The notes under the pieces were generated by a model that saw only the letters and a list, made by a program, of their open reading frames with translations, made no database searches and was not told where the DNA came from. Both the position numbers and the translations under genes were made by a program. DNA of 64,000 bases from Agelas oroides (lineage: Eukaryota > Porifera > Demospongiae > Agelasida > Agelasidae): the NCBI GenBank assembly GCA_949130485.1, contig OX422185.1, positions 19,099,353-19,163,352 on the forward strand, given 5' to 3'. This document shows, piece after piece, positions 2,608 to 64,000 of this stretch. Each line of letters opens with the position of its first letter. The first letter of the stretch is position 1.

Positions 2608-2616
2608 GAGGAATCG

Positions 2617-2740
2617 TAGCCTCATTCCCAGGCCTACCCCGTTTTTTGTTCTTCGGTTTGCGTTCAATATAATACTCCGTGTATTATATTGAACGCAAAC
2701 CGAAGAACAAAAAAACGGGGTAGGCCTGGGAACGAGGCTA
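2617..2740. mobile_element. Foldback MITE, TAGCCTC family, 9-bp TSD
   Basis: A 124-bp nearly perfect inverted repeat begins TAGCCTCATTCCCAGG and ends CCTGGGAACGAGGCTA, with only a few unpaired bases in the centre. It is flanked by identical 9-bp direct repeats, GAGGAATCG, at 2608-2616 and 2741-2749. A 9-bp target duplication is typical of Mutator-like (MULE) transposition, so I infer non-autonomous mobilisation by such an element. It has no coding capacity. Its terminal TAG forms the stop codon of the adjacent broken SWIM gene on the minus strand. Confidence 0.93.
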
Positions 2741-3507
2741 GAGGAATCGATCTCTTAGCTGCAGGCACTGAAATACTGACTTCAGAATTCTTTCTCTTCT
2801 TTCCAACAAACTCACTGGAGAGTATGGTACTGACTTCATAGCAGGAGGCATTACCCAGTAGGCACTCTTCTGCGTAACAGTCAGTGATTCTCTGCTCTCA
2901 ACTCCAACACCAATGACCCAAAGCAAGTGATGCAACACAGGAACAAGTCTCACCCAGTCCTGCCATGCAATCACAGTGCGCAGCAAGGATTCTTCCATGA
3001 TCCATGGAGTGAGTGGTTTTTCACTCAATTTCTGAGAGTGATTTACCTGTACGTGAAAGAATGCCAAGGTGCTGACTTTAGGCTGCCAACAACAGTTGAA
3101 ATCAGTAGCTAAGTCTTTCCAATAACAATTCTCTTGGTATCAACAGCCTTCACAAGTACTTCTCTCGCCCATCCTCGCACAAAGTTCTGGTAGCAGTCCG
3201 AACTCTTGTAGTTGAGCAGGTCTTCTTTAGAGTAGGGGCTTGGAGACAGAATCAGGTACATGCAGACATGGACGTACGTAATAGCAGGCCATAAGTAAAC
3301 GTTATCATGCCATTCGTTCCTCGGTATTTCATAGGGATTAATACCATTCACCAGATCCAGCTTATCCGCATATCTTTTCTTCCAGTCCACATCTGCGATG
3401 GTAGTATAATATGCTGGAATGAGTCCGCGCTGCATCGCTAGCGCTGTGAATCGTGTTGAACCGCAAGTGTTACGCATACGCTTGTCCTCCAACATGGCGG
3501 ATAGCAA
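2738..3507 (-). pseudogene. Broken SWIM-type zinc-finger protein gene
   Basis: The upstream block (3507-3109) encodes 132 residues including ADVDWKKRYADKLDLVNG, ITYVHVCMYLILSPSPYS and FVRGWAREVLVKAVDTKR. This resembles the uncharacterised SWIM-finger proteins, sometimes linked to YqaJ exonucleases, found in many copies in sponge and cnidarian genomes. The next block has VNHSQKLSEKPLTPW, then a region whose +1 frame reads ILAAHCDCMAGLGETCSC, the CxC...CxH SWIM finger with the last His replaced by Cys. It then returns to frame for GVGVESRESLTVTQKSAYWV. An approximately 70-bp insert with a stop splits the conserved GK/VNHSQ junction (about 3056-3116) and has no GT donor. At least two compensating frameshifts occur around 2920-3000, and the final stop is supplied by the MITE at 2740. 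I call it a degraded copy; the family assignment is from memory of the motif pattern. Confidence 0.72.
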
Positions 3508-3646
3508 CAGTTACTAAGGAAATTAGGCCGGAAGCTGACGTCATTGCAACGGGTCTATAGATTTAGTGATATTTAGTCATGTACGTATAAATGAGAGAGG
3601 GTAGCTGATTGGATATACTGGGATGGGGACATTGAAGGATAAAAGT

Positions 3647-3805
3647 AGCCAGATGTTGTAAGAAGTCTCTTGTGTATGAATACAAGAGACTTCTTACTAG
3701 CCTCGTTCCCAGGCCTTCCGACTGTCCAGTTTTTGATCGCTTGCAGGTGATCATAAAACTGGATGGTGGGAATGGAACGAGGCTAACTTCTTACCACATC
3801 TGGCT
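3647..3805. repeat. Hairpin interrupted by a nested MITE
   Basis: If the MITE at 3698-3785 and one copy of its 9-bp duplication are removed, the flanks form a hairpin: AGCCAGATGTTGTAAGAAGT at 3647-3666 pairs with ACTTCTTACCACATCTGGCT at 3786-3805 with a single mismatch, and the arm continues into CTCTTGT/ACAAGAG around a short AT loop. Confidence 0.8.
3698..3785. mobile_element. 88-bp foldback MITE, TAGCCTCG family, 9-bp TSD
   Basis: It begins TAGCCTCGTTCCCAGGCC and ends GGAACGAGGCTA. Identical direct repeats ACTTCTTAC flank it at 3689-3697 and 3786-3794. The arms pair imperfectly around a GATCGCTTGCAGGTGATC centre. It is inserted into one arm of an older hairpin. Confidence 0.92.
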
Positions 3806-4070
3806 GCTCTTTTCAGCTCTCCAAACCTCCTGGTAGATTCTGAGTGTGGCAAGAAGGAAAGGGAGGATTTCATAGCACTCATAGAGGTCGACTGGGTGTG
3901 CCTTTGTGCTAAAGTGTGTCATCATCACATCACACAAGTGGTTTTAAAAGTAGTAAGAGCAAATGAAAGTAAAATGCAGACAGAAATGTGAACGTAATTA
4001 GCATAAGGCCCTTCTAAGGGAACATCTACGAACTATTTTTCCAAAGTAACATCACTGTGACGTGATCCCC

Positions 4071-4206
4071 TAGTCTCGTGCCCAGACTGCTTTCGGAAAA
4101 ATCAAGAAGGGGTCTGGCAACATGGCCATACATTGCTTTGTTCACGCAGTCTGTACAGTGTGTGCCAATCAGCAAGATTTCCAAAAGGGGTCTGGGCACG
4201 AGACTA
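4071..4206. mobile_element. 136-bp MITE, TAGTCTCG family, 9-bp TSD (8/9)
   Basis: Termini are TAGTCTCGTGCCCAGAC and GTCTGGGCACGAGACTA. The flanking nonamers are GTGATCCCC (4062-4070) and GTGACCCCC (4207-4215), one mismatch apart. The interior is not a perfect palindrome, unlike the TAGCCTC members. Confidence 0.88.
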
Positions 4207-4215
4207 GTGACCCCC

Positions 4216-4860
4216 CTCTCCCCCTCCTCATAACATCATGCATACTGTCAACTGTTGGTCAGACACCGCCCTCAAATAATAGCCATGGCTAATTATCCAT
4301 CCGCCCAGTTGGAATAACTTAATCCTATACACATAACTTGACTACTTATATTTTGGTATGTATACACAGGTGTCCTGTTATGACAAGTGTCCAAGAGTTG
4401 ATAGGGAACTGTTTCTATATTTCTCTTCGCAGAAGTGCAGAAGCTTCATTCAAGATCTGCCTGTCGTATCCTCCCACGTGAAGACATAAATATATGATGC
4501 TTACATGCAAGAACTCAATGCTGTTGTGTTGTATGTAGTCATTTTTGTACCTAGTCAATTTTGTTAGCCTCAGTCTTTCTTACTCCAGTGCTTGTCAGGC
4601 ATACTGCAAGAAACTAACGCATGATTAGAAGGCCTGGTTGTAAGGATGTTATTTTATTTTGGAAGTATGGTTGGTCAAATTTTACAATCAGTTATGATTT
4701 GCAGCAACATGCATGGTTGAATTTCAGCTGAACAGTAAAACAAGTAGTATCAGCCTTATCCTAGCCATGATCTATGCAGGCAGGCTACTTTGATAATTAT
4801 AACGTCATGTAGCTACTAACGCTAAAAGAAGTCATCTAGCTAGTCCCATGCTGCAAGAGT
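4216..4860. other. Intergenic, no gene seen
   Basis: AT-rich sequence without supported exons, tandem arrays or inverted repeats. Confidence 0.5.
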
Positions 4861-4949
4861 CTAGCCTATTAAAGTCCACCGTGAGACTGACGTAGGCAAC
4901 TGACAAGAGTGCGAGCGAGAGTAACTCACCCGATCCGACTTCACTGTAG

Positions 4950-7089: not shown

Positions 7090-7099
7090 CTAGGGTATG

Positions 7100-11340: not shown

Positions 11341-14300
11341 TCAACTGATTGCTTTGGACTAAAGCTAGAAAGAGAAGGCTGCGAGAGTTGGTACTGTAGC
11401 TGTGGACAGGCAAAAGATGTGTGATAAAGGGGCTGGTACTGCTGCTGCTGATGCATCGGAGAAGGGAGCTGGCACTGCTGCTGATGTATCGGAGGAGGGA
11501 GCTGGCACTGCTGCTGCTGTATCGGAGGAGGGGGCTGGCACTGCAGCTGCTGTATCGGAGGAGGGAGCTGGCACTGCTGCTGCTGTATCGGAGGAGGGAG
11601 CTGGCACTGCTGCTGCTGTATCAGAGGAGGGGGCTGGCACTGCTGCTGCTGTATCGGAGGAGGGGGCTGGCACTGCTGCTGCTGCTGTGTCGGAGGTGAG
11701 GGCTGGTAGTGTTGCTGCTGGTGACAGGCAAGAGGTGTGGGATGATGGTATTGCTGTTGCTGAATGTCTGAAGCTGGGTATTGCTGAGACTGAAGGGGCA
11801 AGAGGTGGGGCTGCTGATGAAGAGGTTGGGCTGGTGACAGCTGGTACTGCTGAAGGGTAGGAAAGTCAACCTGGCTGCTAGTCAGTAGTTCCCACAAGTA
11901 GTTTATTTCCTGTGTGGAATCTTCCGCTTGTGAAACAAAGGGGAGCGAGTATGTTCCTGCTGATGCTGATGCTCCTCCACTTGGGGTTATAGCAGATGAT
12001 GAGGACTGTGGGTGGCCAAGACCTTCGGTTGTAGCATATGTTGATAGTGGGGGGCCATAACCTGCAGATGATGAGGATGGTGGGTGGCTAGGAACTGTAG
12101 TTGTAGCATATGATGAGGACGGTGGCTGGCTAGGACCTGTGGTTGTAGCAGATGATGAGGATGGTGGCTGGCTCGGACCTGTGGTTGTAGCATATGATGA
12201 GGACGGTGGCTGGCTAGGACCTGTGGTTGTAGCATATGATGAGGACGGTGGCTGGCTAGGACCTGTAGTTGTAGCGGATGATGAGGACGGTGGCTGGCTC
12301 GGACCTGTGGTTGTAGCATACGATGAGGACGGTGGCTGGCTAGGACTTGTGGTTGTATCATATGATGAGGACGGTGGCTGGCTAGGACCTGTGGTTGTAG
12401 CAGATGATGAGGACAGTGGCTGGCTAGTACCTGCAGATGTAAGATGGCTAGGACCTGCAGATGTAAGATGGTTAGGACTAGTTTGTGGTAGGAACTGGCT
12501 TCTGGATATCCCTTGAGTTTCAGACAGTTTCTGCATAATCCATTCCTGGTTCCGCATCATTTGTTCCTGATTCTTTGCATTTACTTCTAGGAACTGTGAA
12601 AATAGTTTGAGGTGTGTTGTAAGTGCTTCCAGTGCATCTGGCTCACCGTCTGTTTAAAATGGAAAAGCAGTTTACAAGTAAAGTGCTAACCTTGTATTCT
12701 TCAACCCAGCTTTTGTTGCACAACAGAAGGAGGCATACACGAAATTCAAACCCAGGACACCTGGCTTGTGCAACCAGTGTTCTACAACTGAGCCATGACA
12801 ACCGGATAACCACCAGCAATCTGGTTCTGACGGCACGTGCTGAGGTGTCCTCGGTTCCATTCCTGGTGACTCCCGGCCTTTTCACTTTCCTCTATTTTCG
12901 TCTCAAAACATCTAAATTCTCTTTATTCCAACGTGAGACAAGAGTTCTAGACTGAGAAAACCACTCAGCATGGGTTCTCTACTGGATGAGATAACGGGGT
13001 TCTGACAGCACATGCTGAGTGACTGCCAGGTGTATGACTGAGGCATTTCAATACCACCTGCACAGTATATATAGAGGATTGTGATGCTGGTGGTTGTCCA
13101 GTTGTTGTAGCTCAGCAGGAGCCCTGGGTTAGATTCCCAGCGAGGTTTATCCACTTTCCTACTGGAGCGACAAAAACTGGAGTGAAGGCCTGGGTGTAAG
13201 TTTAAGAAGAGCATATGTTTCATGACATTATATAGACATAACTGTGTGTGCAAGTTTTTGGTTGCTAAAAATGATGCTGTTGTTTCCTTGACTAGTTACC
13301 AACAGCAATTTGAGGGTAAATGAGCAGCAGCTGTATACAAGCTGGATGCGGATGGGGTCAGGGGACCTACCCCACTCTTAGCAGCCCCCCCACGGACTAG
13401 ATACTGATGCCCTCTTTCATGGACAAAATACACACACACTGCTCTCTTTTCCAGAGCCATGCAATAGATAGACCAATCATGTGATGTGTTCCACAAAGAT
13501 GAGTACCAACAGAGGGCCTAGGCCCATTTGAAAAATCAGAGAAAGGGCCTCGTATCCACTGTTTGTGCAGGTGCTTAATTAGTGCATAAAACTCACGTGA
13601 AATTATGCAAGGGTGTGTCAAATGATGGCCTATATCATGTGGTTATGAACTATGACATTACATATATCGCCAAAGAGGTGACCGCTGCTCTCCGAGCCCT
13701 TTGCCCACGCCTTCTAGCCCCAGCACTTATCGCTTGAACTGCACTGTCGATGTGGGCCGATCTTCACGCTATAACTTTGTAACATGAATTATAACTTGCC
13801 AAAACTCATAAGCAGCCAAATTTCTCTTGGATAAATGCTTCATAGATGCTTTATTTTCAAGTTTGAGCACAGTCGTTTCGCAGGAAGGCAGGGATACAAC
13901 ATGGCAGAATCCGTGTCTTACACACAAATAGCTATTGTCAGCAGTGTATGATTAAAACCACAGGGCTTTTCCAATGTTTTTGCTCTTTGCATACTGCAAG
14001 CAATCAAAAACTGGAGGCCAAGGCCTGGGAATGTAGCTACTGGATCCAAACGTCCTCCAGTGACTGCTATTGCACATAAGTTACTTGCACTTTGGCCAGC
14101 CTTCCATGAAGCCTTCTATGAACACACACAGAAATCAAGGAGGTTCAAATCTATTCATTCAGGCAACTCAAGCACATGACTTTCTGCATACTAACATGAT
14201 ACTAGCTCTTTATTCTCAAGAATAGCATCAACTTCTGAACCTAGTCACGCAAAGCAACTGTGGCAGACTATATACATCTGCTGGTGGAAGCGAACAAAGA

Positions 14301-17169
14301 CAATTTTCTATGGGGAACCAAATCACTCAAAAAGCCTTTTTGCATGTCGCTCACTTTTTTGCGTGTCACCCACTTTTTGGCATGTCACTCTCTTTTTTTG
14401 TGTTTCTGATATATATATAATTATATATATATATCGGACGTCCGATATATATGTTACAGCCGGATTTCAAAACTTTGACTGGTTTGTAAACTGTTCAACT
14501 GGATTATAAGCTGGTCAGCCGGATTTAAAAACCGGTCCAGTTTACACAAAGTCAAAAAGTGGGTCAATAAGCCAGCATGCACAGTCACGAAGCGGGCCGT
14601 CGCATGCACTGGACGGCTTAGCACCTTGTTCATGTGGTCAACGGTCTTTCACGTGTGCTGATAAAAGCTACTGGAAAGAAGCTGCAAAACACAACCTGGG
14701 AACTAGTCAGTTCTTTTTCATGTTAGCATTAGCTTTACGTGTTACTCTCGCAAGTGAGACCCAACCAACGCCAGCATGGATCGCTTTCAACGTCAGATCC
14801 GCGCTGGCGTTGGTTGGGTCTCGCTTGCGAGACCTTGCTTGTATGCTTCTGTTAATCGTTCAACCAGCTTTCATGCCGTTCGAGCCACAGGCTGTTTGTT
14901 CGGCAAGCTTGTACAGCTTTCATGCCGTTCAGGCTGCTTGTAAATGCTTCCAAGCCGTTCGGCCTGGTTTCTACATGGGACCACTTCGTTTTGTATAATT
15001 GAAAGTGGGCCAACCAGTTTAAAAACTGGATGACCGGTTTATAAACCGGTGGCCTGTTTACAAACTGGTCAAGTTTGCAATCAGTTCGCAACATTTTTTT
15101 CGGATGTCTGATATATATACCAGGTGTCTGATATCTTCTTGTTATTAGTAAACATACAAGCTATGTTATTTGTAAACATACAAAGCAGTTTACACTGTAA
15201 ACAAAGTAGCTTATAGGACACATCATTTTACAACTTCCTGTGGTATATGAAACAGAATCTACAACTTCCTGTCAGTATAATATTATTATTATTATTATTA
15301 AATATATACAACACACCAATACAGATGCAGGGGTGAAAAAAGACTAATTAGTACATATTGTATAAATTAAGTCATTGATCTCTGAAGGGTTTCCATGAAG
15401 ACGATGTATATGTAATAGATAAACCACAGCAGACATGCTATTAATCCAAAATACCACAGCAAACCATGCTATCACTTATTACTACTATAAGGGCTTGAGG
15501 ACCGAAGCTATCGATACCTAAAGGACATGGTGACCTTTTGTACGACGATACGCTAGCCTCGTATTCATGCCTGCTTACACCAACACTTGACCCTAGTAGT
15601 ACTCACTGTTAGTACTGCAAACACAACAAACACAGCTGCGCTACAGCTAAGCATGCCCCAAGCTTCAGTATTTTCAAACGACCTCTGGTTACGCTGACAG
15701 GGCAGCTTTCGCAACATACAGCTAGCGCCTGTACTTTTGTGGACACAGAACACCTTCGTTCGATACTTTTACTATTCTGCCAACAGGTAGCCATAGGAGA
15801 ATAGTCTCGTGCCCAGACTATTTTTCGCACGCGGAGGGGAAAAATAGTCTGGTCAACTGCCTATTCAATTTTTGTTCCGTGCGGTTTAAAAATTGGTGAC
15901 GCAACGGCTTCAAAAATGTATTATGTGATGTCACACAAAGCTTGAAACTACGAAAGAGCTCTAAAGAGACGGCTTGTTGCAGGCATCATCCTTCTCGGAA
16001 CTTCTGAACGCCAAGAGATGAAGATTCACAAAACACGAAGCCTCTGCCAACCTCAGATAGCCCTGAGACAATCTTATCGACATTTGAAAGCCTCAGGAAC
16101 TTCACACTGCCAGTTTTCAAGCTCAGAAACACACACCGCCCGTTCACAGAAGTCCTGGCATTCCTTTGCCGGTCGTTCTCTGGTTCTACAAGGCTTAGTC
16201 TCCTGCATAGCGCTTCAACTGCCTAGCCAGCTTTGATAGCTGTACGTGACGTCATTCGCATGAAGCAATCTGATTGGAGCGCCACGAATGTGGCGCTTGG
16301 AACAAAAATTGAATAGGCAGTTGACCAGACTATTTTTCCCCTCCGCGTGTGAAAAATAGTCTGGGCACGAGACTAATAGGAGAACACGCTAACTGCTCAT
16401 GGTCTGAAAAAGTGACCTCCGCCTTTTACCCCACCCAAAATTGAAAACGTGTCCTACAACATTTCTGTGACAACCTTGTAGGTGGCACCTCAATTAGCCA
16501 ATCAGATTAGTATTCAAAGAAACCAATCAGATTTCTCAGTAAGTGTGAAATTACTTTACACTTTTCAATGGATCAAGCATTTATACAGAGAACTTTACGG
16601 TATTAGGAAAATAATACCCACCTGTTAGGCAGGTGTGAAGTGGAGAAACAAGGGTGAAGTGGAGAATACATAATAGTTAGACACTAGGATCTATGCAATT
16701 TAGAAACCCGAGGGCCCCCAGGCTATAGAATCCTGAGCGTAGTGAGGACGCTACTAGGGAGCCCGAGGGTTTATAAATTTTGGCCCAAAAATGGTCTCAG
16801 AAGCAATAAATTACCAATATTTTCTGGGAGGGGGGGGTCATGCCTCAAGACCCCCCTAGCTGTTGTGTGCTTACACACACACCAGTAACCTGACCACTTC
16901 AAATCTGATTACTACAGCCCTGAATCAGGACTACACAAATGTGCAGTAAAAAAATCCCCCATATAAGGCAAATGCCACTCCCAAAGGGCATGCTGCTGGG
17001 GTCAAACCCACCACCAAGCTACCAGCTGTAGTAAAATACATGTGTAGCCTCTGGTAGACCTCCTACCTGGCTGGTACTTCGCTTTTTTCGTGGCGGGAGG
17101 GCTGTCTTCGAAAGTACGTGCATTACCATCGTATATACATGACCTGCTGCGAATCTCCTCCTTGGACAT
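11082..17169 (-). CDS. BEN-domain protein, two-exon model
   Basis: Exon 1 (17169-17067) starts MSKEEIRSRSCIYDGNARTF and ends at donor CCAG/GTAGGA in phase 1. Exon 2 (12649-11082) opens after acceptor TTTAAACAG with the matching phase, giving 1671 nt and 556 aa. After a short helical segment (DALEALTTHLKLFSQFLEVN) come about nine imperfect GPSQPPSSSYATTT repeats, then a Gln/Pro region of CQLPPPIQQQQ repeats. The last 75 residues match the BEN pattern: AVHLALYYFFGKEVMARNTP, LDPTKMQEIKRITITKF, ALWKKCKDAIGHKCNRLR. BEN domains bind DNA or chromatin factors, so I infer a nuclear regulator with a long disordered region. The repeats are DNA-level tandem arrays likely to vary in length. Extra exons in the 4.4-kb intron cannot be excluded. 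The BEN exon is firm; the link to exon 1 rests on phase and splice sites. Confidence 0.72.
11440..11700. repeat. Coding tandem repeat, Gln/Pro type (BEN gene)
   Basis: About eight units of roughly 30 bp, CTGCTGCTGTATCGGAGGAGGGGGCTGGCA-like, encode QCQ(L/P)PPPIQQQ on the minus strand. Other frames give misleading long ORFs (EEGAGTAAAVS and LALLLLYRRR repeats). Confidence 0.9.
12080..12425. repeat. Coding tandem repeat, Ser/Thr/Pro type (BEN gene)
   Basis: About nine units of 42 bp encode GPSQPPSSSYATTT on the minus strand. The high similarity between units implies recent expansion or gene conversion. Confidence 0.9.
12690..12865 (-). mobile_element. tRNA-derived SINE
   Basis: On the minus strand, TGGCTCAGTTGTAGAACACT resembles a tRNA A box (D arm) and CCTGGGTTTGAATTTCG a B box (T arm), at tRNA-like spacing. 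The preceding GATTGCTGGTGGTTATCCGG is shared with the copies at 13.1 and 61.6 kb. It lies in the BEN intron just upstream of exon 2. Confidence 0.6.
13063..13150 (+). mobile_element. tRNA-derived SINE fragment
   Basis: TATATAGAGGATTGTGATGC, then TGGTGGTTGTCCAG and TTGTAGCTCAGCAGGAGC (A-box-like), then CCTGGGTTAGATTCCCAG (B-box-like). The leader is shared with the 61.6-kb copy. The anticodon-arm region is deleted. Confidence 0.6.
13160..14400. other. BEN gene intron, no further feature seen
   Basis: Single-copy AT-rich sequence. I see no supported exon in either direction. Confidence 0.45.
14408..15120. mobile_element. Foldback element with long diverged TIRs
   Basis: The left arm (GATATATAT...CCGATATATATGTTAC, then CTGGTTTGTAAACTG, CCGGATTTAAAAACCGG) is mirrored on the right (ACCAGTTTAAAAACTGG, CCGGTTTATAAACCGG, CAAACTGGTCAAG, CGGATGTCTGATATATA). 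The arms are roughly 130-150 bp and clearly diverged. The interior holds a second palindrome (14746-14832). No clear target duplication could be assigned. Confidence 0.6.
14746..14832. repeat. 87-bp palindrome inside the foldback element
   Basis: TCTCGCAAGTGAGACCCAAC at the left pairs with GTTGGGTCTCGCTTGCGAGA at the right, and the arms continue through CAACGCCAGC/GCTGGCGTTG. Confidence 0.85.
15802..16375. mobile_element. 574-bp MITE, TAGTCTCG family, 9-bp TSD
   Basis: Termini TAGTCTCGTGCCCAGACTAT and ATAGTCTGGGCACGAGACTA continue as roughly 95-bp arms (GGAGGGGAAAAATAGTCTGG, CAACTGCCTATTCAATTTTT). Exact 9-bp repeats ATAGGAGAA flank it (15793-15801, 16376-16384). The about 380-bp interior is unique here and has no convincing ORF. 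Confidence 0.94.
16390..17030. other. BEN intron, no gene seen
   Basis: It contains a poly-G run near 16829-16836 in a repeat-like GGCCCAAAAATGG context. No exon is supported. Confidence 0.4.
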
Positions 17170-17339: not shown

Positions 17340-17793
17340 ACTGTAAACAATGACGTCAAATGCCCTTTAACCGTAACGATCGTACCGATCGTACTAACCG
17401 TACCTACCATACTTACCATACTCAGGTTCAGTTGCCTACCCACTTCTGATGAAGAAGAGCCTGGGGACGTGGATTACCCCAACCCGTCAATTGACTGTCT
17501 TTGTGGACGCACGGGAGGGTATATTATCTATGACGGGAGGGATACCTGTATTATATTATCTATGACGGGAGGGATACCTGTATTTTAAAAATACAAGTAT
17601 CCCTCCCGTCATAGATAATATACCCTCCCGTGCGTCCACAAAGACAGTCAATTGACGGGTTGGGGTAATCCACGTCCCCAGGCTCTTCTTCATCAGAAGT
17701 GGGTAGGCAACTGAACCTGAGTATGGTAAGTATGGTAGGTACGGTTAGTACGATCGTTACGGTTAAAGGGCATTTGACGTCATTGTTTACAGT
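17340..17793. repeat. 454-bp inverted repeat (hairpin)
   Basis: Arms of about 210 bp start ACTGTAAACAATGACGTCA and end TGACGTCATTGTTTACAGT. They match almost base for base, including GATGAAGAAGAGCCTGGGGA and CCGTCAATTGACTGTC. The centre is a direct repeat of ATTATCTATGACGGGAGGGA. I could find no target duplication. It sits just upstream of BEN exon 1. A transcript would form a long double-stranded RNA. Confidence 0.93.
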
Positions 17794-17993
17794 AGTATTT
17801 TTAATGCCATATCAGCATTTTACTGTTTATGTTGAGGTTTCCTGTACAAGCTCAAGACACAAGACACAAAGAGAGTAAACTAGTTCACATTGATTGGAGT
17901 AGACAGAACCTGCCTGAACTTTTCATTTGACTCAAGAATCCCAGGAATGGACCAGGTAGCTAATTAGTTGACCTGCTGTGTAACAAACAATCT

Positions 17994-19782
17994 GGCCATG
18001 GCGATGTATGCCATTGGCACTCTCCCCCTTATCCGCAAGCTACATGGCGATGTGACACAGGTCTGGTATGCTGATGATGCGTCTGCGGGTGGGAGAACTT
18101 CAGACCTGCGTGTATGGTGGGACAGTCTGGTATCATATGGCCCACGTTTTGGATACAATCCCAACCCATGCAAGACATGGCTGGTTGTCAAGCCCGAGCA
18201 TTTACCCGCAGCAGAAGAACACTTCCGAGGCTCTGGAGTCAACATCACTATCCAGGGACATAGATACCTCGGTGCCCCTTTAGGGTCAAAGTCCTTTGTA
18301 GAAGATTTCATCCGGGACAAGATCAGCTGTTGGGGTTCTGAGATCAGACGTCTAGCCGAGATTGCTAAAGTCCAACCTCAGGCTGCATATGCTGTCTTTA
18401 CCCACGCCCTTACAAGCAGGTGGACGTTCCTCATACGCACTGCTCCTGGCATAGAACCTCTCTTGCAACCATTAGAGGAAGCAATCCGGCACCAATTTCT
18501 GCCGGCAATGACTGGGAGACAAGGAATCACTGACATAGAGAGGGAATTATTGGCCCTACCAGCGCGCCATGGTGGCCTTGGTGTACAGATTCCAACTAGA
18601 AATGCTAAAAACCAGTTCAAAGCCTGCACAGAAGTGACTGCTCCCCTCGTGAAGCTCATCCGCCAATGGAACCCCAATTATCCCAAGCCCTCGCAGCAAG
18701 AGCAGAGGCAGATGAAGTCTGCACTCCGCACAAGGAACCGAAGAGAAACCACAAAAGAGGCTGAGTTATTGAAACCAAAACTATCAGGGGCTGGGCAAAG
18801 GGCAATGGAACAGGCCAGCGAAAAAGGTGCCTCTACATGGCTCACAGCCATCCCCATGTCCAAACACGGCTTCAACCTTCACAAACAGGCCTTCAGAGAT
18901 GCCCTCTGCCTTAGGTTTGGCTGGACACCAGCAAGACTAGCCACACACTGCCCATGTGGCCAACCATTTAGTGTTAACCACGCGTTCAGCTGCCCGAAGG
19001 GTGCCATGCCTTCCATTCGACACAATGCTATCAGAGACATCACTGCACAACTTCTCACGGAGGTATGCCCAAACGTTTGTGTAGAACCCATTCTCCAGCC
19101 GTTGACTGGAGAGAAATTCCCCTTCAGAAGCACCAATACTGAGGAAGGCGCAAGACTTGACATCAAGGCCCAAAATTTCTGGGACAAAAGCAAAAAATCA
19201 ACCTTCTTTGATGTCAGAATCTTCAACTCCCATGCACCAACGAATTGTACTTCCTCCACCGACGCTTGCTACAGAAGACATGAACGCGAGAAGAGGAGAG
19301 CATATGAACAGCGTGTCCTCGAAGTGGAGCATGGTACCTTTACTCCTCTGGTCCTGTCCACAAGTGGAGGTTGGGGTCCGTCTGCCACGGTTGCTTTCAA
19401 GAGACTTGCAGGTCTCATTTCTGAGAAACACGACCAACCATACAGTAGCACCCTCAGCTTCATCAGATGTAAGATCGCTTTCAGCTTGATTGACTCAGCC
19501 ATCGCATGCCTCCGAGGTCCCAGATCTGCCTTCCATGCTCCAGCCAGGGACTTCAACCTGACAGACCACCCCCTGGACCTCATCCATGCTGAGGTCCATC
19601 TTCAGGCCTAAACACCAGTCAATCTTAACATGCCAATTGGACATTAATAGAACTCTTACAATTCTTTATATGCTATTTGGTTTCCATGTTTTTCCTACTT
19701 TCCTTTTTTTACTCATCTGTACAGAGTACACACATATATATATATTTTTTTAAAAAAACGAAAAAAAAAAAAAAAAAAAAAA
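17994..19782 (+). mobile_element. 5'-truncated RLE-type LINE with poly(A) and 14-bp TSD
   Basis: Exact 14-bp direct repeats GTAACAAACAATCT flank the element (17980-17993 and 19783-19796). It starts inside the reverse-transcriptase coding region and ends with an A-rich tail at 19751-19782. This is the signature of target-primed reverse transcription with 5' truncation. Confidence 0.95.
17998..19611 (+). CDS. LINE reverse transcriptase C-terminus plus restriction-like endonuclease
   Basis: The open frame begins upstream at 17968, but its first ten residues are host flank. Element sequence starts at about LAMAMYAIGTLPLIRKL. VWYADDASAGG carries the catalytic YADD; the upstream RT motifs are lost. 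The thumb and linker region includes ALTSRWTFLIRTAPGIEPLL and LLALPARHGGLGVQIP. A CxC...H...C zinc motif (HCPCGQPFSVNHAFSC, about residues 308-323 of the listed frame) with nearby RHN is followed by ARLDIKAQ and STFFDVRIFNSHAP, which fit a PD-(D/E)xK endonuclease as in R2/NeSL-like LINEs. About 538 residues are uninterrupted to the stop at 19611, so the copy is young but cannot be autonomous. Confidence 0.85.
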   Translation: MAMYAIGTLPLIRKLHGDVTQVWYADDASAGGRTSDLRVWWDSLVSYGPRFGYNPNPCKTWLVVKPEHLPAAEEHFRGSGVNITIQGHRYLGAPLGSKSFVEDFIRDKISCWGSEIRRLAEIAKVQPQAAYAVFTHALTSRWTFLIRTAPGIEPLLQPLEEAIRHQFLPAMTGRQGITDIERELLALPARHGGLGVQIPTRNAKNQFKACTEVTAPLVKLIRQWNPNYPKPSQQEQRQMKSALRTRNRRETTKEAELLKPKLSGAGQRAMEQASEKGASTWLTAIPMSKHGFNLHKQAFRDALCLRFGWTPARLATHCPCGQPFSVNHAFSCPKGAMPSIRHNAIRDITAQLLTEVCPNVCVEPILQPLTGEKFPFRSTNTEEGARLDIKAQNFWDKSKKSTFFDVRIFNSHAPTNCTSSTDACYRRHEREKRRAYEQRVLEVEHGTFTPLVLSTSGGWGPSATVAFKRLAGLISEKHDQPYSSTLSFIRCKIAFSLIDSAIACLRGPRSAFHAPARDFNLTDHPLDLIHAEVHLQA

Positions 19783-20580: not shown

Positions 20581-20908
20581 TAGTCTTGTGCCCCGCCCAC
20601 GCGTGCCTCCCAGCGAGGAACGGTCTGGTGAACGAAGTCGAATTTCTTGGGCTTATTACCCAAAAGTGGTAATGACCAATGAGATTGCGAGGTTGGTAAT
20701 TATTATGTAGCACTTAATTCCCTTACAACAGTAAAATTTGTTCATTTTCATTCGAGTATCCATACCTTTTTTTGAGCGGGTTGGCCGCAAAATGTTTTGA
20801 TCGTTGCTAGGTTACATTGTCGCAAAAGCGTGCGCTAGCCCAAGAAATTCAACTTGGTTCACCAGACCATTTCTCCTCGTGAGAGGGTGGGGTCTGGGGA
20901 CGAGACTA
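20581..20908. mobile_element. 328-bp MITE, TAGTCT family, 9-bp TSD
   Basis: Termini are TAGTCTTGTGCCCCGCCC and GGGTGGGGTCTGGGGACGAG ACTA. Sub-terminal arms GGTCTGGTGAACGAAGT and CTTGGTTCACCAGACC pair. Exact 9-bp repeats AGATATACC flank it (20572-20580, 20909-20917). Confidence 0.92.
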
Positions 20909-21246: not shown

Positions 21247-23084
21247 CTATATATTTTGATATAGAGCAGGTAACTTAATGGTCCTGCCACTGACAACACA
21301 GTACCAGTTGTGTGTGTGTGGAGAGATGTCCTGATGGAGAGGACATGCACTCACATCTGGAAACTCATACTCCAGCTCCCCATGCACAAACACAGATGAA
21401 GCACAACAGTTCTCCACCAGTTGGGGGTATGGTAGTTGGGCTGGTATTGGGAAGTCACACTGGGTATCTTCGTCAGTGGAGGTCGGTTGCTGTTGGCTGA
21501 GAATGTTTAGCAACAGTTGGTTTTCCACTTCCAACTCTCTCACACGATCATTTAGCTGCTCAGTATGTTCTTCAAGTGTTGAAATCCTTTGGACAAGTAC
21601 ACACTGGTTCTGAATGTGGGATAGCAGAAAGGGAGTGAGAAAACATTGTCAAGAAATCACTTATATCTCTCGAGTGTGTATGTACATAATTGGGGCGAGC
21701 CTGAGCGAACCCCACACTAGCGAAACTGCATTGAGCACGTGTGTGTGTGATATATACTTGCTCGGTTGGTGAAGGGATATATTGCCAGAGTACAGCAACA
21801 GTATAGCTGCCCTGGCTGGAGAAATGGCGCAATTTGTTGGCATGTGATACCTAGCCATCTCTGGTGATGACTTATCTACTTATGCATCATCAAGTTCAGC
21901 TTATTACGCTCATGTGACAGTAGACAGTGACAAACCCTAGACCTGCTGTGTGCCATGACAAATCATTAAACCAGCAGCTTGCTGCTTGCTCAGGCTCACG
22001 CCACGATGATGAATCATCTGACTAGTTAAGATTGTTTTATTGTGTGTGAAACTGGGGCCAGTCAGCATAGCTTGTAGTATATATAAGTGCTATACCATTG
22101 CAGTAGTACTGCATGGTGGGGACATTCATGTTTCAATATTCATTGTTCTTTACCACTAACCACACTAAGAGTGATCTAACCCTCAGACCAACCTACCTGA
22201 AACTGTATTGCATTCTCCAAGTGTTCAACATGTTGATTTAGCTGGTTGATAGTTTGTTGTAGCATCTCTAACTTAGCAACTACTTGCCGAACTTCATTTT
22301 GACTCTCATCTAGTTTTCTCTCCAGTTGTGGACACTTTGAAATGTATTGGTGGCTGGCAGTAGAGGTACACTGTGTCAAGTTAGCTGTCATCTTTTGGGT
22401 AAGGGATTCGTAGTCCTGCGCCCACTGGTTGTTAATGTAGCATAGCTACATGATAGATAAAATGTTACCTAAAATGAGTAACTAATATTGAAATTTGTCA
22501 CTCATATAACATAATATATATATGCACTGAAAAGCACATCTGAAAAATTCATCATGCACTCTCATTACCACAGAAGGGGTAGATTTTTCATTAGCTAAAT
22601 TTTGTAGAATTACTGATATTCATGACTACATACTACATAATACTACATGCACACACACACACATAAATTTTATTTTATTTGTTCATTTGTTTATTTATTT
22701 ATTTTTATTTTTTTCTTCGCTAGTCATTTAAGCTGGAATGACAGACGGACACACACTAACCCTCTCGATGTACTCTTCAAACGCCTGTCTATCTCGTCTC
22801 ATTGCGCTCCTGTCGCGCCACAGAATAAAGTAGTGGAGAAGCAGGTGGATGAACACTGCCTCGGGACCCTGCAGCTGCCACGAGTAGAAATAAACTGGCA
22901 GAAGATCCTGCAGTTTGCTCTGGAAGGCAGCAGAGTTCGCGATCTCCACCATCTCCGCAGTCGTCGTCTGCGAGATGTCTTCGCACATTTGCTGCAGAAT
23001 CTCCGACACCTCCTGTCCGCTGGGTAACGGCAGACTGGGAACGCTCGGAAAGCACCGAGGGATTGCGCTACTCTCGCTTGCCAT
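21247..23084 (-). CDS. Gene B: three-exon coiled-coil protein of unknown family
   Basis: Exon 1 is 23084-22761 (108 codons), exon 2 is 22445-22197 (83 codons), and exon 3 is 21624 or 21609 down to stop 21247. All junctions are phase 0. The N-terminal domain has SGQEVSEILQQMCEDISQTT, SKLQDLLPVYFYSWQLQG and HLLLHYFILWRD. Exon 2 starts LCYINNQWAQDYESL and is a coiled coil. Exon 3 ends in a Cys-containing tail, ENCCASSVFVHGELEYEF, CPLHQDISPHTHNWYC. It is a clear paralogue of gene A at 28.3-30.1 kb but lacks the last 60 residues of exon 1. At exon 3 the expected acceptor AG reads TG (TTTCTG/CTATCC); an in-frame CAG 15 nt downstream could replace it. Function unknown. If only the normal acceptor is usable, the gene may be damaged. 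Confidence 0.68.
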
Positions 23085-23214
23085 GAAGACGACTACTACC
23101 AGCAACCGCAATTGTACAACCCGCCGCACTAACGCCAGCCGGTATGTTCGTCGCCTTTATATAACGTAGGTAGCAAAAAGGGGTTAGGCGCGCGCCGTAT
23201 AGGACAACCGCTCC

Positions 23215-23989: not shown

Positions 23990-24034
23990 ACCAGGCCCTT
24001 TCTCCTCCTCTTCGGGTCTGGGAACGAGGCTAAT
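23990..24034. mobile_element. Solo right end of a TAGCCTCG-family MITE
   Basis: GGTCTGGGAACGAGGCTA matches the right terminus of the family, preceded by AGGCCCTTTCTCC. I found no matching left end or 9-bp partner for the ATGTAACAT that follows. Confidence 0.45.
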
Positions 24035-25170: not shown

Positions 25171-25179
25171 ACTTACCTT

Positions 25180-25250
25180 ACCACTTTTGGGGAATAAGCA
25201 CAAGGAATTCGACTTTGTTCACCAGGCCGTTTCTCGCTGGGATGCGGGTT
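25180..25250 (-). mobile_element. Fragment related to the 20581 MITE
   Basis: ACCACTTTTGGGGAATAAGC, AATTCGACTTTGTTCACCAG and CCGTTTCTCGCTGGGA are the reverse complement of the left sub-terminal region of the element at 20581. Ends and target duplications are missing. Confidence 0.6.
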
Positions 25251-26815: not shown

Positions 26816-27179
26816 ACTTCTTAGTTAGGGCCATAAAAATCAGCATCAGCATACCAACATAAACATGCAGGGTGAATGCACCATGTTGTGATATTCATTG
26901 GTTATAGTTGTGATAGAGACTGGGATTCATTGGGCCTGCCTTTGCCCAGACATCCTGGCACCAAAACATTCACTGGCCACTTACACTGCTGTGGTATGCT
27001 TCGCTGACCACTGTAACATGTAGCTATATGATGTCATTGTACAGGTGATAATACAGGTTGTGAAAATTAATACTGTCCAGATATCCCGGCACCAAACATT
27101 CACTGCTGTACCATAAACACACATCTTCTCGCTGTTCCACAATCAAAGTAAACTTGACTAATTGAATTCATGTTTCACA

Positions 27180-28324: not shown

Positions 28325-30109
28325 TCACTTAATTGTCATGCCGCTGATGATGCAGTACTGATTGTATGTGTGTGGAGAGATGTCCTGATGGAGAGGGCAT
28401 GCACTTGCATTTGGAAACTTGTACACCAACCTCCCGTGCACAAATTCAGATGAAGCACAACAGTTCTTCACAGGTTTGGGGTATGAAGGTGTGGCTTGTA
28501 TTGGAGAATCAGCTGCAGGCTGTGTATCCACCAGTTTCTGTTCCAACTCTTGCATGCGATCATTTAGTTGCTCAAGTGCTGAAATTCTTTGAGCAAGTGA
28601 TTCACAAGTGAATGCCCACTGGTTGTCAATGTGACATAGCTGAAGGGGAGGGAGAGTCAGATTATTTAGAATGCTTGCAAATTTTATAAAGTGGTGCATT
28701 TATATAGCAGACCAGAATGTTCAGTTCAAGTCATTCCATGCCTAATTCAGAATGCATCATGGCTAATTGCAAATCCTTATCCTTTCCGCAGAAAGGATAA
28801 GGATTTCATAGCAGGCATGCCTGCTATGCTATGAATATTCATACATGGTGCCTGCTATGAATACCTGCTATATTCATAGCTAGCCTCGTTCCCAGGCACT
28901 TGAGGAAAGAGCCTGGGGACGAGGCTAATTCATAGCAGGCATGCCTGCTATGAATACTTAAAGCTTGCACATAATCAAGCTGCCAAAGACTATGGTGCAG
29001 TTCTTATAATATGCAGCGGTAGCCATTTGCAGCCACCAATATACACACATGTAAATGTCAATGAACATGATACTATTACAGCATGAAGAGCTTGGCTCTC
29101 AGAACAACCTACCTGAATCTGTATTGCACGATTTTCATTCTCCAAATGTGCAACTTGTTGATTTCTCTGGTGTATAGTATATTGCAGTGTTTCTAACTTT
29201 ACAGTTATTTGGCAGACTTCATTTCGACTCTCGTCCAGTCTTTTCTCCAATTGTAGACACTGAGTGCATTCCATAGTGGTAGAGGAAGGGGTACTGTAAT
29301 ACCCTGTTGAGTTAGCTGTCATCTTTTGGGTAAGTGATTCATAGTCTTGAGCCCACTGGCCATTAATGTGGCAGAGCTGCAGGGGAATTAACACCAAAAA
29401 TCATACTATAAACTGGCACTCATTTACTGATACTGCAGTTTAATGCACTGAATGAAAGATCTGCTCTTATATATGCACTTGACAACATGACAAAAAGTAA
29501 AAGATTTTTATTATATAGCTACAAGAATTACGACTATAATATTATGCATACAAACTCGAGTAACTTCAGCCAAGCTGGAATGACAGATGGACACGCGCTA
29601 ACCTCGTCGTGTGCACTCTGTAATTTCTTGTTGTCCATTTTCAAGTCTTGCACTTGCTTCGTGAGTCTATTAACCTCGGGGTCTGTCTCCTCCAGCTCCG
29701 CCTTCGTTTTGTGGATCTCGCTTTGACTCGCGTCAAGTTTCTTCTCCAGCTCTGCCACACGAGTTTTCAGTCGCTCGATGTACTCTTCAAACGCCTGCCT
29801 GTCTTCCCTCCTTTCGCTGCCATCTTGCCACAGAAGAAAGTAGTTAAGAAGCAAGTAGATTATCACAGCCTCGCGACTCTTCAGCTGCCAAGAGTAGAAA
29901 TAAACTGGCAAAAGATCCTGCAGCTTGCTCCGTGGAGCTGCGGAGTTTGCAACCTCCACGATCTCCGCAGTCGTCGTCTGCGAGATCTCGTCGCACATTT
30001 GTTGTAGAATCTCCGACACCTCCTGACCACTGGGCAGTAGCTGCAGGCTGGGAGCGCTCGGAAAGCAACGAGCTCGAGGGTCTTGGATTGCGCTACGAGA
30101 GTTTGCCAT
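28325..30109 (-). CDS. Gene A: three-exon coiled-coil protein of unknown family
   Basis: Exon 1 is 30109-29603 (169 codons), exon 2 is 29376-29113 (88 codons), and exon 3 is 28639-28325 (104 codons and stop), all phase 0 with GT-AG sites, giving 361 aa. The N-terminal domain contains SGQEVSEILQQMCDEISQTT, SKLQDLLPVYFYSWQL and YLLLNYFLLWQDG. Then comes a coiled coil (RVAELEKKLDASQSEIHKTK). Exons 2 and 3 both open with LCHI(N/D)xQWAxxxESLxQ. The C-terminus is NCCASSEFVHGRLVYKF and CPLHQDISPHTYNQYC. The start was chosen because the MA residues are shared with gene B; an in-frame ATG at 30226 would add 39 residues. I do not recognise the family. It lies 568 bp downstream of the DLG5-like stop on the same strand. 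Confidence 0.75.
28775..28960. repeat. Cluster of nested palindromes (gene A intron 2)
   Basis: AATCCTTATCCTTTC pairs with GAAAGGATAAGGATT, and repeated AGCAGGCATGCCTGCT and TGAATATTCA palindromes follow. A 47-bp MITE has inserted into them. Confidence 0.8.
28881..28927. mobile_element. 47-bp foldback element, TAGCCTCG family, 9-bp TSD
   Basis: TAGCCTCGTTCCCAGGC at the left and GCCTGGGGACGAGGCTA at the right are joined by only 13 bases. Exact 9-bp repeats ATTCATAGC flank it (28872-28880, 28928-28936). Confidence 0.92.
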
Positions 30110-30677
30110 GAGGACGAGCTTGTACGTACGGCTGTAATTTTCGGGTTGGGGCTCGGAAGCAGAATGCATGTCAACTGAGTCTTCTCGCGCGCTTTTATTA
30201 CACATTAGGGCGGAAGACACTGCCATAAATACTTATAAGGCGACAGCCAAAAATGTTTCCAGGAGCGCTTGGATACAGGCTGCACGAGTAATTAGCAATT
30301 AGTTTTACGTGCACAGTAGGCGTACCCGGAAGAGTAAGCTTCCGTAAAAGATCGGATGTGCTGTAGAATATCTGTTTATGCTACCAAACTATCCAGTGCT
30401 TGTGTTATATGCCAGTGACTTTGATCCTTAAATGAGTATTACATAATTATAGTAGTAGGTAAACATTAAAAGTTAAACATTATAAAAGTGTGGATGTTAT
30501 AAACAGTAGGATTTGTGATAGTTTGCAAAGTGTGACAGACTCAGCTAAACATGAAATATTGTATAACAGATTTGATAAAAAGTTTCATTGAGTGTGATGA
30601 CACATACCACATAAAACACACATCTATAAAAAAAAAATTAAAGATGATGATCAAGCTTCAAACAGACAATGTTCATT

Positions 30678-56095
<25,418 letters not shown>

Positions 56096-58261: not shown

Positions 58262-58545
58262 GCCAAGAGTAGGCCTCGACATTTGGTGGGAAGCAGGGTT
58301 CTCGCTAGGCCTTCAGCGGATGGTTTTGCACCATTTGGTTAATTGCAGCACAATTTGGATGATGTGTTGAATTTCAGTAAGAGCACTATTTGGCCTAAGC
58401 CCTGCCGATGGCAGTTACTATCCTGGCTTCCCACTTAACAATAGTAGAGTGTAGAGAGGGTGTTTGCTCATTGTACTATGCACCATTTGGAAGTAGATTT
58501 CTAGCGAGAACCCTGGTGGGAAGGCCTGGGAACGAAGTTAGTACA
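58262..58545. mobile_element. Imperfect inverted-repeat element
   Basis: TAGGCCTCGACATTTGGTGG and AGCAGGGTTCTCGCTAG at the left are partly mirrored by CTAGCGAGAACCCTGGTGGG and AAGGCCTGGGAACGAAGTTA at the right. No target duplication was found. It probably relates to the TAG...CTA family. Confidence 0.45.
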
Positions 58546-59392: not shown

Positions 59393-59394
<2 letters not shown>

Positions 59395-60640: not shown

Positions 60641-60647
60641 TACCATC

Positions 60648-60767
60648 TCAGCAATTGACAGGCCTAGCCTCGTTCCCAGGCTCCCCCGCACCAAAACACA
60701 AATACGCGGAGAGAGCTTGGCATCTTTTCTCACGTGATCATGACGTAATCAGCAATTGATAGGCCTA
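60648..60767. mobile_element. TAGCCTCG-family end flanked by longer direct repeats
   Basis: TAGCCTCGTTCCCAGGCTCC (60664) is a family left end, but no right end follows. TCAGCAATTGA(C/T)AGGCCTA flanks both sides (60648-60667 and 60749-60767), so the insert of about 85 bp may reflect a different rearrangement. Confidence 0.45.
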
Positions 60768-61735: not shown

Positions 61736-62235
61736 TTCCTGTATTATACCAACAAACAATATTAAGGCAAAATGCTCCAAAGCGGAGCCAGAAATATAAA
61801 TAGCAAATAGCAAATTTGTAGCACAAAAGAAACTAACGGATACAAGGTCACTCAAACGCTGGATATAAAAAGAGGGCGGCTATTCCAATGGAGTGGCAGT
61901 GGTAGTGCTATAATTAAGCGATTTTCAGCTTTGTTACAGCATTGAAATCTTCCCAGCATTTAAAGTAACTCCACTTTGAATTGTTTCAATCAACCTATAA
62001 GCAAAAACTGGTAACGTTAAAAATTTGCACCGCAGGTTTACAAATCAACACTGAAAACAACATGTCATGGCAGCATATAAGATCTATATAACTAGACACA
62101 AATTTTAGGCTGTAAATGGATAGATTTTTATTGGATACATAGATTTTAATTTGTCAACCGGAATGCTGTATCTACAATATGCTGTGGGTTTTCGTACAGG
62201 TCTTGGCTTTCACACACAGTGTTCTACCAAGTACT

Positions 62236-62282
62236 AAACTAAAAAGTACCAAACTAAAAAGTACCAAACTAAAAAGTAGCAA
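62236..62282. repeat. 14-bp repeat, about 3 copies
   Basis: ACTAAAAAGTACCAA units in tandem. Confidence 0.85.
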
Positions 62283-62438
62283 AGAGATACAAATTAACTA
62301 CCTACTACTTTTCTACAGGTCAACGTTCCTGTAGCGTTGCTAAGCTGCTTCTTAGATGTCATTCGCGATAATTTGACCACAACAAACAAGTTATCTAGGT
62401 AGCATTTGTTGTACTGTATGCACATACAGCATACTTAC

Positions 62439-62535
62439 CTGGGACCTTCAAAATGGTCGAACTCGGACGCTTAAACAAGCGCGCCTTTCTCTTGGTACAT
62501 CTGCTTCTGATCAACTCCTCTTGGACTCCAGCAGC
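62439..62535 (-). other. Possible upstream exon with strong donor
   Basis: The minus strand reads an open stretch (GVQEELIRSRCTKRKARL, FKRPSSTILKVP) ending CCCAG/GTAAGTATG at 62439, with a stop upstream and no in-frame ATG. It could be an untranslated first exon of the DLG5-like gene (6.3 kb upstream of its ATG) or belong to another gene. Support is only the donor and the local CpG content. Confidence 0.3.
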
Positions 62536-62844
62536 GATCTAGAAGCCATTCATAAAGTGATCAAATGTCATAATCAGCATCTTGTGTCGAAAAGAGGGGG
62601 AGGGGTCGCCACTGGGCATGGCATGTGGTATTTGGCGACCTACGCATTCCAAAAATGTTTGTGGTAACGTAACAGGCTAAGTGATACGGGAACGAGACAG
62701 TAGGAATAGGTGTTGGGGCAGAATCTGACTCGGCACACCCCCACACTTGACCAGCCCAGTCGTGGGCCAGCCAGACGCTTGTCTGAGCATAGCATATTCC
62801 CGGCCCCCCGCCCAGGTTTCTTTGGCAAGCCAGCCCAGTGGGAG

Positions 62845-62864
62845 TAGTCTGGCTTGCGAGACTA
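62845..62864. mobile_element. 20-bp minimal TAG...CTA element with 9-bp TSD
   Basis: TAGTCTGGCTTGCGAGACTA is an imperfect palindrome flanked by identical CAGTGGGAG at 62836-62844 and 62865-62873. It has the same end bases and TSD length as the longer MITEs. Confidence 0.7.
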
Positions 62865-63026
62865 CAGTGGGAGGAGCGAGCACCTACGCCACGCCTGGCT
62901 CGCTAGACTAGACGGAGGCTGGAAAACAGGTTAAACATCGCCGTTTTTCGATTTTTCTAGACACAGGTAAAGTAATCGCTATTATCCATTTGTCAATAAT
63001 TTGACAGTAAGAAACCGTTCAGGCAA

Positions 63027-63847
63027 TAGTTTGGTTCCCAGACCCTTCCTGTATGGGCGGGGCGAAAACGCTCCCCTTTTGCCCCGCCCATACAGGAAGT
63101 AGTGATGTCAGAGTTTCCAAAAGTATGTAAATATTCTTCTACACAGGCCATTTCTCCACAATGTCTTAATGTATTCACATCAAATTTGATATAGAGGTTC
63201 TTTAGAGGCTTGGGTATATTTCCTTGCACAGCTTTGTTAAAAATATCTGCCTCGATCAAAACTACACACAATTTTTTGTCACATCTCGCTACTTTTCTGC
63301 AAATTGTTGAAGTATTAAGACATTTTGTGATGCTGCTCACAGGTACTTCAATATTCAACAAAGCACAACCAGTTCTGTATACTAGAGTAGTTGTCCAATG
63401 GGATGGTACAGGTTTTTGATTGGAACCTTGCTCCAACTTCCCCGGAAATGCAACTATTTATGGCCACAAAATGCCGTTTTTTAAGCATTTATCAAGCCTA
63501 GTGCAAGGATTATACTAGATATCTAAAAGCCACAACCTTCATTGGACTGAATAGGTACAGACTATCCTTCACAGCGAGTTTCGTTCTGATCGGGCTTACA
63601 GCGGCTTCCGGAAAGGTAGTGACCGGAATATTGCGCTAAAATGACGTAGAAAAATTTGGCAAACCGGTTACATTTCGAAGACCGTACCGCTTGCTGTATT
63701 CACCCAATCTCATTGATATGGGTACCGTTGGAATCGCCATTTTATGCTCTTTTCGAAAATAAAGGTTGTTGTTGTGATAAACGAATTTTGATTTTCACCC
63801 CGACATCGCTACAGGAAGGGTCGGGGAACTCGCTGGGAACCAAACTA
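63027..63847. mobile_element. 821-bp MITE, TAGTTTGG variant, 9-bp TSD
   Basis: TAGTTTGGTTCCCAGACCCT and CTGGGAACCAAACTA termini, with CCTTCCTGT/ACAGGAAGG next inside. Exact TTCAGGCAA repeats flank it (63018-63026, 63848-63856). A second hairpin (GGGCGGGGC/GCCCCGCCC around 63053-63094) lies near the left end. ORFs in it lack support. Confidence 0.92.
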
Positions 63848-64000
63848 TTCAGGCAAAGCCAACGTGAAAAAATCAAAAGAAAGGCTTGCGTATCTGCTAA
63901 CCAGACCCCATCTGGGTACGATATCACACAGCTTTTGACAAAAGTCCTCGCAGATCATTGGGGTTGGGGGGCGGGGGAGGGGACAGAATTACGGGATTAT

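Follow-up and report, generated by a model that had tools for sequence, protein, structure and literature searches.

In solo long terminal repeats (LTRs), the interior of an element is lost between its repeats and one end is left between the target duplications. Mutator-like elements (MULEs) make a target duplication of 8–11 bp, usually of 9 bp. Muta1, an active MULE of the mosquito Aedes aegypti, makes target duplications of 8–9 bp (PMC5225508, in part). Galileo of Drosophila, a member of the P superfamily with 7-bp duplications and long terminal inverted repeats (TIRs), has foldback-like ends and forms a series from nearly complete to two-TIR and solo-TIR copies (PMC3573991, in part). FB4 of Drosophila is non-autonomous, makes 9–10 bp duplications and has no known transposase (PMC8277862, in part). 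In our study, a stretch of 64,000 nucleotides of the sponge Agelas oroides (the window; C3:19099353–19163352 of an assembly of 259 Mb in 141 contigs) was found to contain eight insertions with TAG...CTA ends and 9-bp flanking repeats. The smallest members of this group are probably solo-terminus scars, left by the in-place collapse of larger insertions like solo LTRs, and not transposons of 20 bp.

The group resembles MULEs such as Muta1 and their short derivatives in the 8–9 bp duplications, the inverted ends and the presence of non-autonomous derivatives (PMC5225508, in part), whereas its ends start with TAG, its members go down to 19–21 bp and no transposase was linked to the ends in the 30 loci sampled. 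The series ending in solo termini is shared with Galileo; the solo-TIR copies of Galileo are defined by their missing partner (PMC3573991, in part), whereas the solos described here are defined by the duplication around one 18-bp end. The non-autonomous members, the duplication length and the lack of a known transposase are shared with FB4, whose TIRs are about 700 bp long, and a series of tiny members is not described in the accessible portion of that paper (PMC8277862). The LTRs are direct repeats hundreds of bases long, whereas the repeat considered here is only 4 bp long and comes from near-palindromic inverted ends. A literature search for four end words of 13–14 bases found no paper, and among the papers found on sponges, miniature inverted-repeat transposable elements (MITEs), MULEs and 9-bp duplications, no title or abstract opening describes this group; the coral MITE paper, as far as its opening goes, concerns piggyBac-related elements (PMC2872659). 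The overall behaviour appears to be that of a MITE/foldback group with MULE-like duplications, and what looks new is how far the collapse goes, down to a single 18-bp end whose 9-bp copies are intact, in a group that is dense.

The end pattern TAGYYTBR matched 37 times in the window as a left end and 37 times as a right end, which gave 141 pairs at a spacing of 16–6000 bp. Exact flank matches of 9 bp (k = 9) were found in seven of these pairs, where 0.0008 were expected; there was one match at k = 4 and none at k = 5–8 or 10–13. No match was found in the window pairs when the flanks were shifted by 1–6 bp, with one mismatch tolerated. A scan blind to the end sequence, which asked for a k-mer repeat flanking any ends that match inversely at 8 or more of 10 positions, returned exactly the same seven insertions at k = 9; the other values of k from 5 to 12 gave 0–5 matches, and the printed ones (k = 8 and 10) did not start with TAG. 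All eight insertions of the original prediction were recovered with their coordinates and lengths, seven with exact repeats and the one at 4071–4206 with a single mismatch, and partial members at about 24.0, 25.2, 58.5 and 60.7 kb also exist.

The ends, the duplications and the copy number are direct observations, and the duplications were found well beyond the window. In 264 kb, made up of the window and 200 kb of flanking sequence, 647 end pairs contained 15 exact repeats at k = 9 (14 distinct left ends), one at k = 4 and none at k = 5–8 or 10–13; with up to one mismatch allowed, the number at k = 9 was 19. This tally counts one left end twice, through a 2573-bp pair in locus L125 that was rejected and read as a tandem duplication; its left end is common with a 627-bp element, and its repeat recurs downstream with the same flank. 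When 98 kb of MULE loci were added (362 kb), 25 distinct elements of 19–831 bp were found with up to one mismatch, 18 of them exact, the duplicate 2573-bp row being excluded. A far-side search from 174 termini, which required only CTA and the repeat, gave 39 rows at k = 9, where most elements are counted once from each end, and 4, 2, 2, and 0 rows at k = 7, 8, 10, and 11, respectively; it added two elements, of 329 and 67 bp.

Chance coincidence of TAG/CTA words and 9-mers in low-complexity DNA was considered as the origin of these repeats. Matches of the low-complexity kind were present, as a satellite at k = 10 and a tandem repeat at k = 8, and not at k = 9. In a control with TAGNN ends (pairs up to 1000 bp apart), exact 9-bp repeats were found for TAGTC (5), TAGCC (9), and TAGTT (1), whereas the other drawn types gave none. 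Shuffling of the right flanks among pairs gave at most 5 exact repeats versus 15 observed in the 264 kb and 5 versus 7 in the window; because the same flanks recur in several pairs, the shuffle can re-pair true partners. An excess of 9-bp repeats over random, which had been set beforehand as the test, is present in the 264 kb. Taken with the expectation and the empty neighbouring lengths and shifts in the window, these counts rule out chance, to which we assign practically no probability.

The dominant end types were the C type TAGCCTCGTTCCCAGGC and the T type TAGTCTCGTGCCCAGAC; TAGTCTCGCAAGCCAGAC is among the variants. Because the T-type terminus (TA-GTCT-CG...CC-AGAC) is almost its own reverse complement, GTCT occurs at its outer edge and, read on the other strand, at its inner edge; the C-type terminus (TAGCCTCG...CCAGGC) has an equivalent GCCT repeat. 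Within the window, the elements were alike in little beyond their ends, with inter-element matches of 17–29 bp, except for the partial copies at 14.0 and 25.2 kb. Each end of the 574-bp element repeats part of its own sequence as a nested inverted copy, GAAAAATAGTCTGG, and the family of this element has short members of 75, 70, 62, 48, and 36 bp. In the 62-bp member (L147) the nested inverted copy creates a 14-bp direct repeat, across which the left and right parts are joined, and in the 36-bp member the prefix and suffix overlap by 6 (one mismatch allowed). Among three palindromic pairs inspected, those of 36 and 48 bp had exact 9-bp repeats.

The insertions had been called palindromic, which is true throughout of 2617–2740 and 28881–28927 and nearly so of 3698–3785; the longer elements contain inverted ends around a non-palindromic middle. 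The long self-complementary arms of foldback elements were likewise found in the first two and largely in 15802–16375, whereas the others have shorter inverted ends. The features of MITEs were found in the length of 19–831 bp, the inverted ends, the target duplication and the abundance of the termini; their non-coding nature was checked on one open frame of the 821-bp element (62993–63457, minus strand), which had no Pfam match at E 0.1. The group is best read as one very large set of non-autonomous DNA transposons of MITE or foldback type that share little beyond a terminus of 17–19 bp.

The 17-base end TAGYCTCGTNCCCAGRC was found at 26,906 exact places genome-wide versus none for a reversed control, i.e., about 104 per Mb over 259 Mb. 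Two-terminus palindromes of 34–64 bp were found at 935 places, each being reported on both strands, versus none in the control. The first 90 bases of the 574-bp element gave 548 first-look candidates, and all 40 scored places matched at 94–100%, some matches being both ends of a single copy. The 47-bp element of the window has one exact place genome-wide and one with 3 mismatches, and a 53-bp palindrome taken as an example has two exact places; these two small palindromes are not amplified. The solo-like form was found at 667 places for the T type (TAGTCTCGN2-6CCAGACTA) and 221 for the C type (TAGCCTCGN2-6CCAGGCTA), counts that do not measure solos because some are ends of larger elements, e.g., of the 574-bp family. 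Symmetric tiny units (TAGTCTCGN2-6CGAGACTA) were found at no more than 12 places. Groups of termini recur at C1:4.48–4.67 Mb and C1:1.26–1.46 Mb, as 46–47 bp palindromes and as trios a few kb apart, which suggests segmental or tandem arrays carrying the elements. When 26 flank queries, representing 25 distinct elements, were compared with the analysed sequence, no clean empty site was found; the only near-empty paralogue judged (L171/L174) carries most of the 9-mer once, but this copy adjoins a 9-bp gap and the site is not proof.

Among 1157 TAG...CTA spans of 14–30 bp in the 362 kb, an exact 9-bp repeat was found in three, of 19, 20, and 21 bp. All three read TAGTCTCG-N3/4/5-CCAGACTA, with the same junction and three different spacers, and each consists of one terminus and TA. 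A fourth solo (L187, 21 bp, exact 9-bp repeat) was found among 17 single motif sites inspected. The 18-base part of the 20-bp element in the window occurs at 812 places in the genome, partly as inverted pairs, whereas the same 18-mer followed by TA occurs at only two, one being the window element and the other lying on C15. The TA is therefore unlikely to come from the donor terminus, and the other end of the element would have supplied it; the donors of this 20-bp family appear rarely or never to end in CCAGACTA. Termini like that of the 19-bp solo continue as CCAGACC in L157 (spacers GAT and GAA), and termini like that of the 21-bp solo of L187 do so in L167 (spacer CGGAG).

We infer that the size ladder arises after insertion, through internal deletion. 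An element would be inserted in trans by a transposase, possibly of MULE type, which cuts the target with a 9-bp stagger. GTCT would then stand as a 4-bp direct repeat at the outer edge of one end and at the inner edge of the other, and a deletion between the two words, by replication slippage at the hairpin or by end joining after a break, would take the interior together with one terminus. The product would read TA+GTCT+GG..., i.e., one terminus and TA with a length of 19–21 bp, and both 9-bp target copies would persist around the remaining terminus; other deletion junctions would give palindromes of tens of bases. Joining of two ends at GTCT reproduces the 20-bp element of the window exactly. 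The original prediction had taken the small size as a trait of mobile elements, and this part does not hold well, as the members of 19–21 bp are more likely collapsed relics.

Several observations weigh against collapse in place. No 9-bp repeat was found at 16 of the 17 single motif sites; 15 of the 17 had been picked for unusual spacers. Two of the sites lacking a repeat, L177 (spacer CGGAG) and L185 (spacer CGTAG), read CCAGACTA, so that donors ending in TA are possible for those two solo families and our confidence is slightly lowered. C-type termini were solo in 0 of 36 cases versus 3 of 21 for T-type termini in the 362 kb (one-sided 0.045), despite the equivalent GCCT repeat. In the family of the 574-bp element, three of the five short forms (75, 48, and 70 bp) had no junction overlap (0, -3, and -12, respectively, with one mismatch allowed), and no 9-bp repeat in register was seen around the 70-bp form.

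The units of 19–21 bp could instead be truly mobile, if the transposase inserts a single short end, or two pre-cut ends in a tagmentation-like manner with the gap joined afterwards. Their exact 9-bp duplications lie in DNA without an evident larger element, the unit starts with TAG and ends with CTA, and the sites in L177 and L185 could serve as donors. The exact 20-mer, however, has only two places genome-wide against 812 for its 18 bases, and no two of the three census solos have the same spacer. Two ends that lie 20 bp apart on a stiff helix are also unlikely to synapse, and we consider mobility of these units very improbable. Still less credible is the idea that isolated termini of about 19–21 bp are integrated as complete substrates by an enzyme of an undescribed kind, one that uses TAG...CTA ends and makes 9-bp duplications; if true, they would be the shortest transposons known. 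The small units could also be excision footprints, where an element was removed and imprecise repair spared parts of one end, or of both, between the target copies; with Muta1, constructs that lacked target duplications sometimes kept as much as 13 bp of an end after excision (PMC5225508, in part). However, the excision of Muta1 in yeast was about 90% precise in the presence of 8- or 9-bp duplications, with loss of one target copy (same source), whereas the units described here still have a full terminus flanked by both target copies. Excision footprints are unlikely, though less so than mobile units; they differ from in-place collapse mainly in the cause of the break, which the sequence cannot tell. 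Collapse of larger insertions in place is the reading that we retain for the solo termini.

The duplication length points to a MULE-type transposase, with repeats at k = 9 in 15 of 647 pairs and none at k = 5–8 or 10–13. The hAT superfamily makes an 8-bp target duplication and was rejected, with no exact repeat at k = 8 in the window or the 264 kb; the P superfamily (7–8 bp), including Galileo, was rejected on the same basis at k = 7 and 8. Merlin, Zisupton, and others make duplications of 8–9 bp. The genome contains at least 119 matches to the MULE domain PF10551, the only family covered by the genome transposase search, and 30 of the loci were sampled, each about 3.3 kb long (about 1.5 kb on either side of the domain). 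No MULE domain was found inside a TAG-end pair with 9-bp repeats in these 30 loci, and no autonomous element with these ends was found there or in the 264 kb, so that the suggested check, a look for an autonomous MULE with the same termini, turned up none within this scope. In L162, a MULE domain is bracketed by a left end (342) and a right end (2784), and these ends have no 9-bp repeats. Flanking repeats were looked for in seven MULE copies; three copies, all from one family, had repeats of 10, 11, and 8 bp (L160, L170, and L157, respectively) with ends other than TAG, and four had none. In L160 (1256–2109) and L170 (1183–2036), an 854-bp element with a MULE domain contained 86-bp inverted repeats with CCCAGAATGTCTAAT motifs and flanking repeats of 10 and 11 bp.

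A mover from another or undescribed superfamily that makes 9-bp duplications is a substantial possibility, although not the one that we would put first. It is favoured by the 30 loci without a MULE domain inside a repeat-flanked pair and by the TAG start, whereas most, but not all, arthropod MULEs have G/C-rich bases at the first three TIR positions (PMC13359780, in part). The abundance of MULE domains and the reach of the sample, in length and in number of loci, stand on the other side. The suggested MULE-like transposase thus stays plausible from the 9-bp repeats and the abundant domains, and is weakened by the TAG start and by the sampled loci. The transposase of the group is possibly of MULE type; because no sampled domain lies inside a repeat-flanked TAG pair, this assignment rests on the duplication length.

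Because CTCGTTCCCAGGC also occurs in cyanobacterial palindromes, we asked whether the ends could come from bacteria. This idea was rejected. A TAG...CTA pair flanked by 9-bp repeats with 0 or 1 mismatch was absent from 122 of the 124 loci checked; the two exceptions (L007 and L009) are both contigs filed under a sponge symbiont. The same 17-mer was found in at least eight contigs filed under the Cycloclasticus symbiont of a Poecilosclerida sponge. In eight such loci, 34 end pairs contained one exact 9-bp repeat (147 bp) and one with a single mismatch (61 bp), and no exact repeat at k = 7, 8, 10, or 11. Open frames of at least 120 codons covered a fraction of 0–0.52 of these eight loci, compared with 0.16 and 0.42 for two window stretches and 0.29–0.86 for five further loci, a pattern that favours a eukaryotic origin of these contigs only a little. 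One of the Cycloclasticus-filed loci (L041) contained a 44-bp palindrome that is 87% identical to the 47-bp element of the window and has no 9-bp repeat. The cyanobacterial palindromes CTCGTTCCCAGGCTCC(T)GCCTGGGAACG (L023, L027, L034, L035 of Microseira, and others) have a 13-base core in common with the animal ends, and no shared 9-bp repeat structure was seen in them.

Table 1. Insertions with TAG...CTA ends, and their partial relatives, in the window of Agelas oroides.
Feature	Position	Strand	Remarks
124-bp element, near-perfect palindrome	2617..2740	.	9-bp repeat GAGGAATCG
88-bp element	3698..3785	.	9-bp repeat ACTTCTTAC
136-bp element	4071..4206	.	flanks GTGATCCCC / GTGACCCCC, one mismatch
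574-bp element, 82-bp inverted ends	15802..16375	.	9-bp repeat ATAGGAGAA
328-bp element	20581..20908	.	9-bp repeat AGATATACC
47-bp palindrome, two termini back to back	28881..28927	.	9-bp repeat ATTCATAGC
20-bp probable solo terminus, minus-strand TAGTCTCGCAAGCCAGAC + TA	62845..62864	-	9-bp repeat CAGTGGGAG
821-bp element, TAGTTTGG ends	63027..63847	.	9-bp repeat TTCAGGCAA
Degenerate partial relative of the 88-bp element	13994..14039	-	82% over 49 columns
Intact single terminus	24016..24032	-	no 9-bp-repeat partner found
Partial copy of the left arm of the 328-bp element	25178..25245	-	90% over 68 bp
Degenerate single terminus, 2 mismatches	34294..34310	+	right end of the 328-bp element 92% similar, 25 bp
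Degenerate terminus, 2 mismatches	58524..58540	-	adjoins a different inverted-repeat element, 58294-58515
Intact single terminus	60665..60681	+	no 9-bp-repeat partner found

The elements and their partial relatives are listed in Table 1. Part of the left end of the 88-bp element, together with its left flank, was matched at two further loci (L163 and L164), and for this reason the insertion probably sits in a duplicated stretch. These two MULE-bearing loci are 99.8% identical over 1936 bp and differ by an insertion of about 385 bp in L163 (about 1937–2320; L164 1934–1936); most of the insertion is a palindrome that has AGAGCGGCTGC-like ends and a TAT repeat, and the two loci form a presence/absence pair for another palindromic element. 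A near-perfect palindrome of a different inverted-repeat kind lies at 17340–17793, with 172-bp arms that are 99% complementary and 37 nucleotides between them. The 222-bp element at 58294–58515, which we take to be hAT-like, contained CAGGGTTCTCGCTAG-type inverted ends and an 8-bp repeat, GTGGGAAG.

The open frames of the window looked exon-like by eye. A frame of 547 amino acids (17968–19611) had no Pfam match at E 0.1 and resembles, by eye, the C-terminal part of a non-LTR retrotransposon protein. Similar conserved proteins (EVSEILQQMC...) are encoded on the minus strand at 22728–23156 and 29534–30232; for the latter, 153 relatives were found in the database at E up to 0.001, some of them with PF27605. 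A minus-strand frame at 45596–46006 matched PDZ domains of solved structures (harmonin, E 1e-5), with no Pfam match at E 0.001. This match and the exon-like frames point to an animal host.

The density of about 104 termini per Mb indicates that the transposase of this group has shaped the genome of the sponge. If the collapse in place is true, the solo termini would be a DNA-transposon counterpart of the solo LTR, and the layout of the ends would make the insertions prone to collapse to a 20-bp end where they stand. Genomes could then retain insertion scars too short for ordinary repeat finders, and one group spanning 831 bp to 19 bp would test the lower size limit of mobility.

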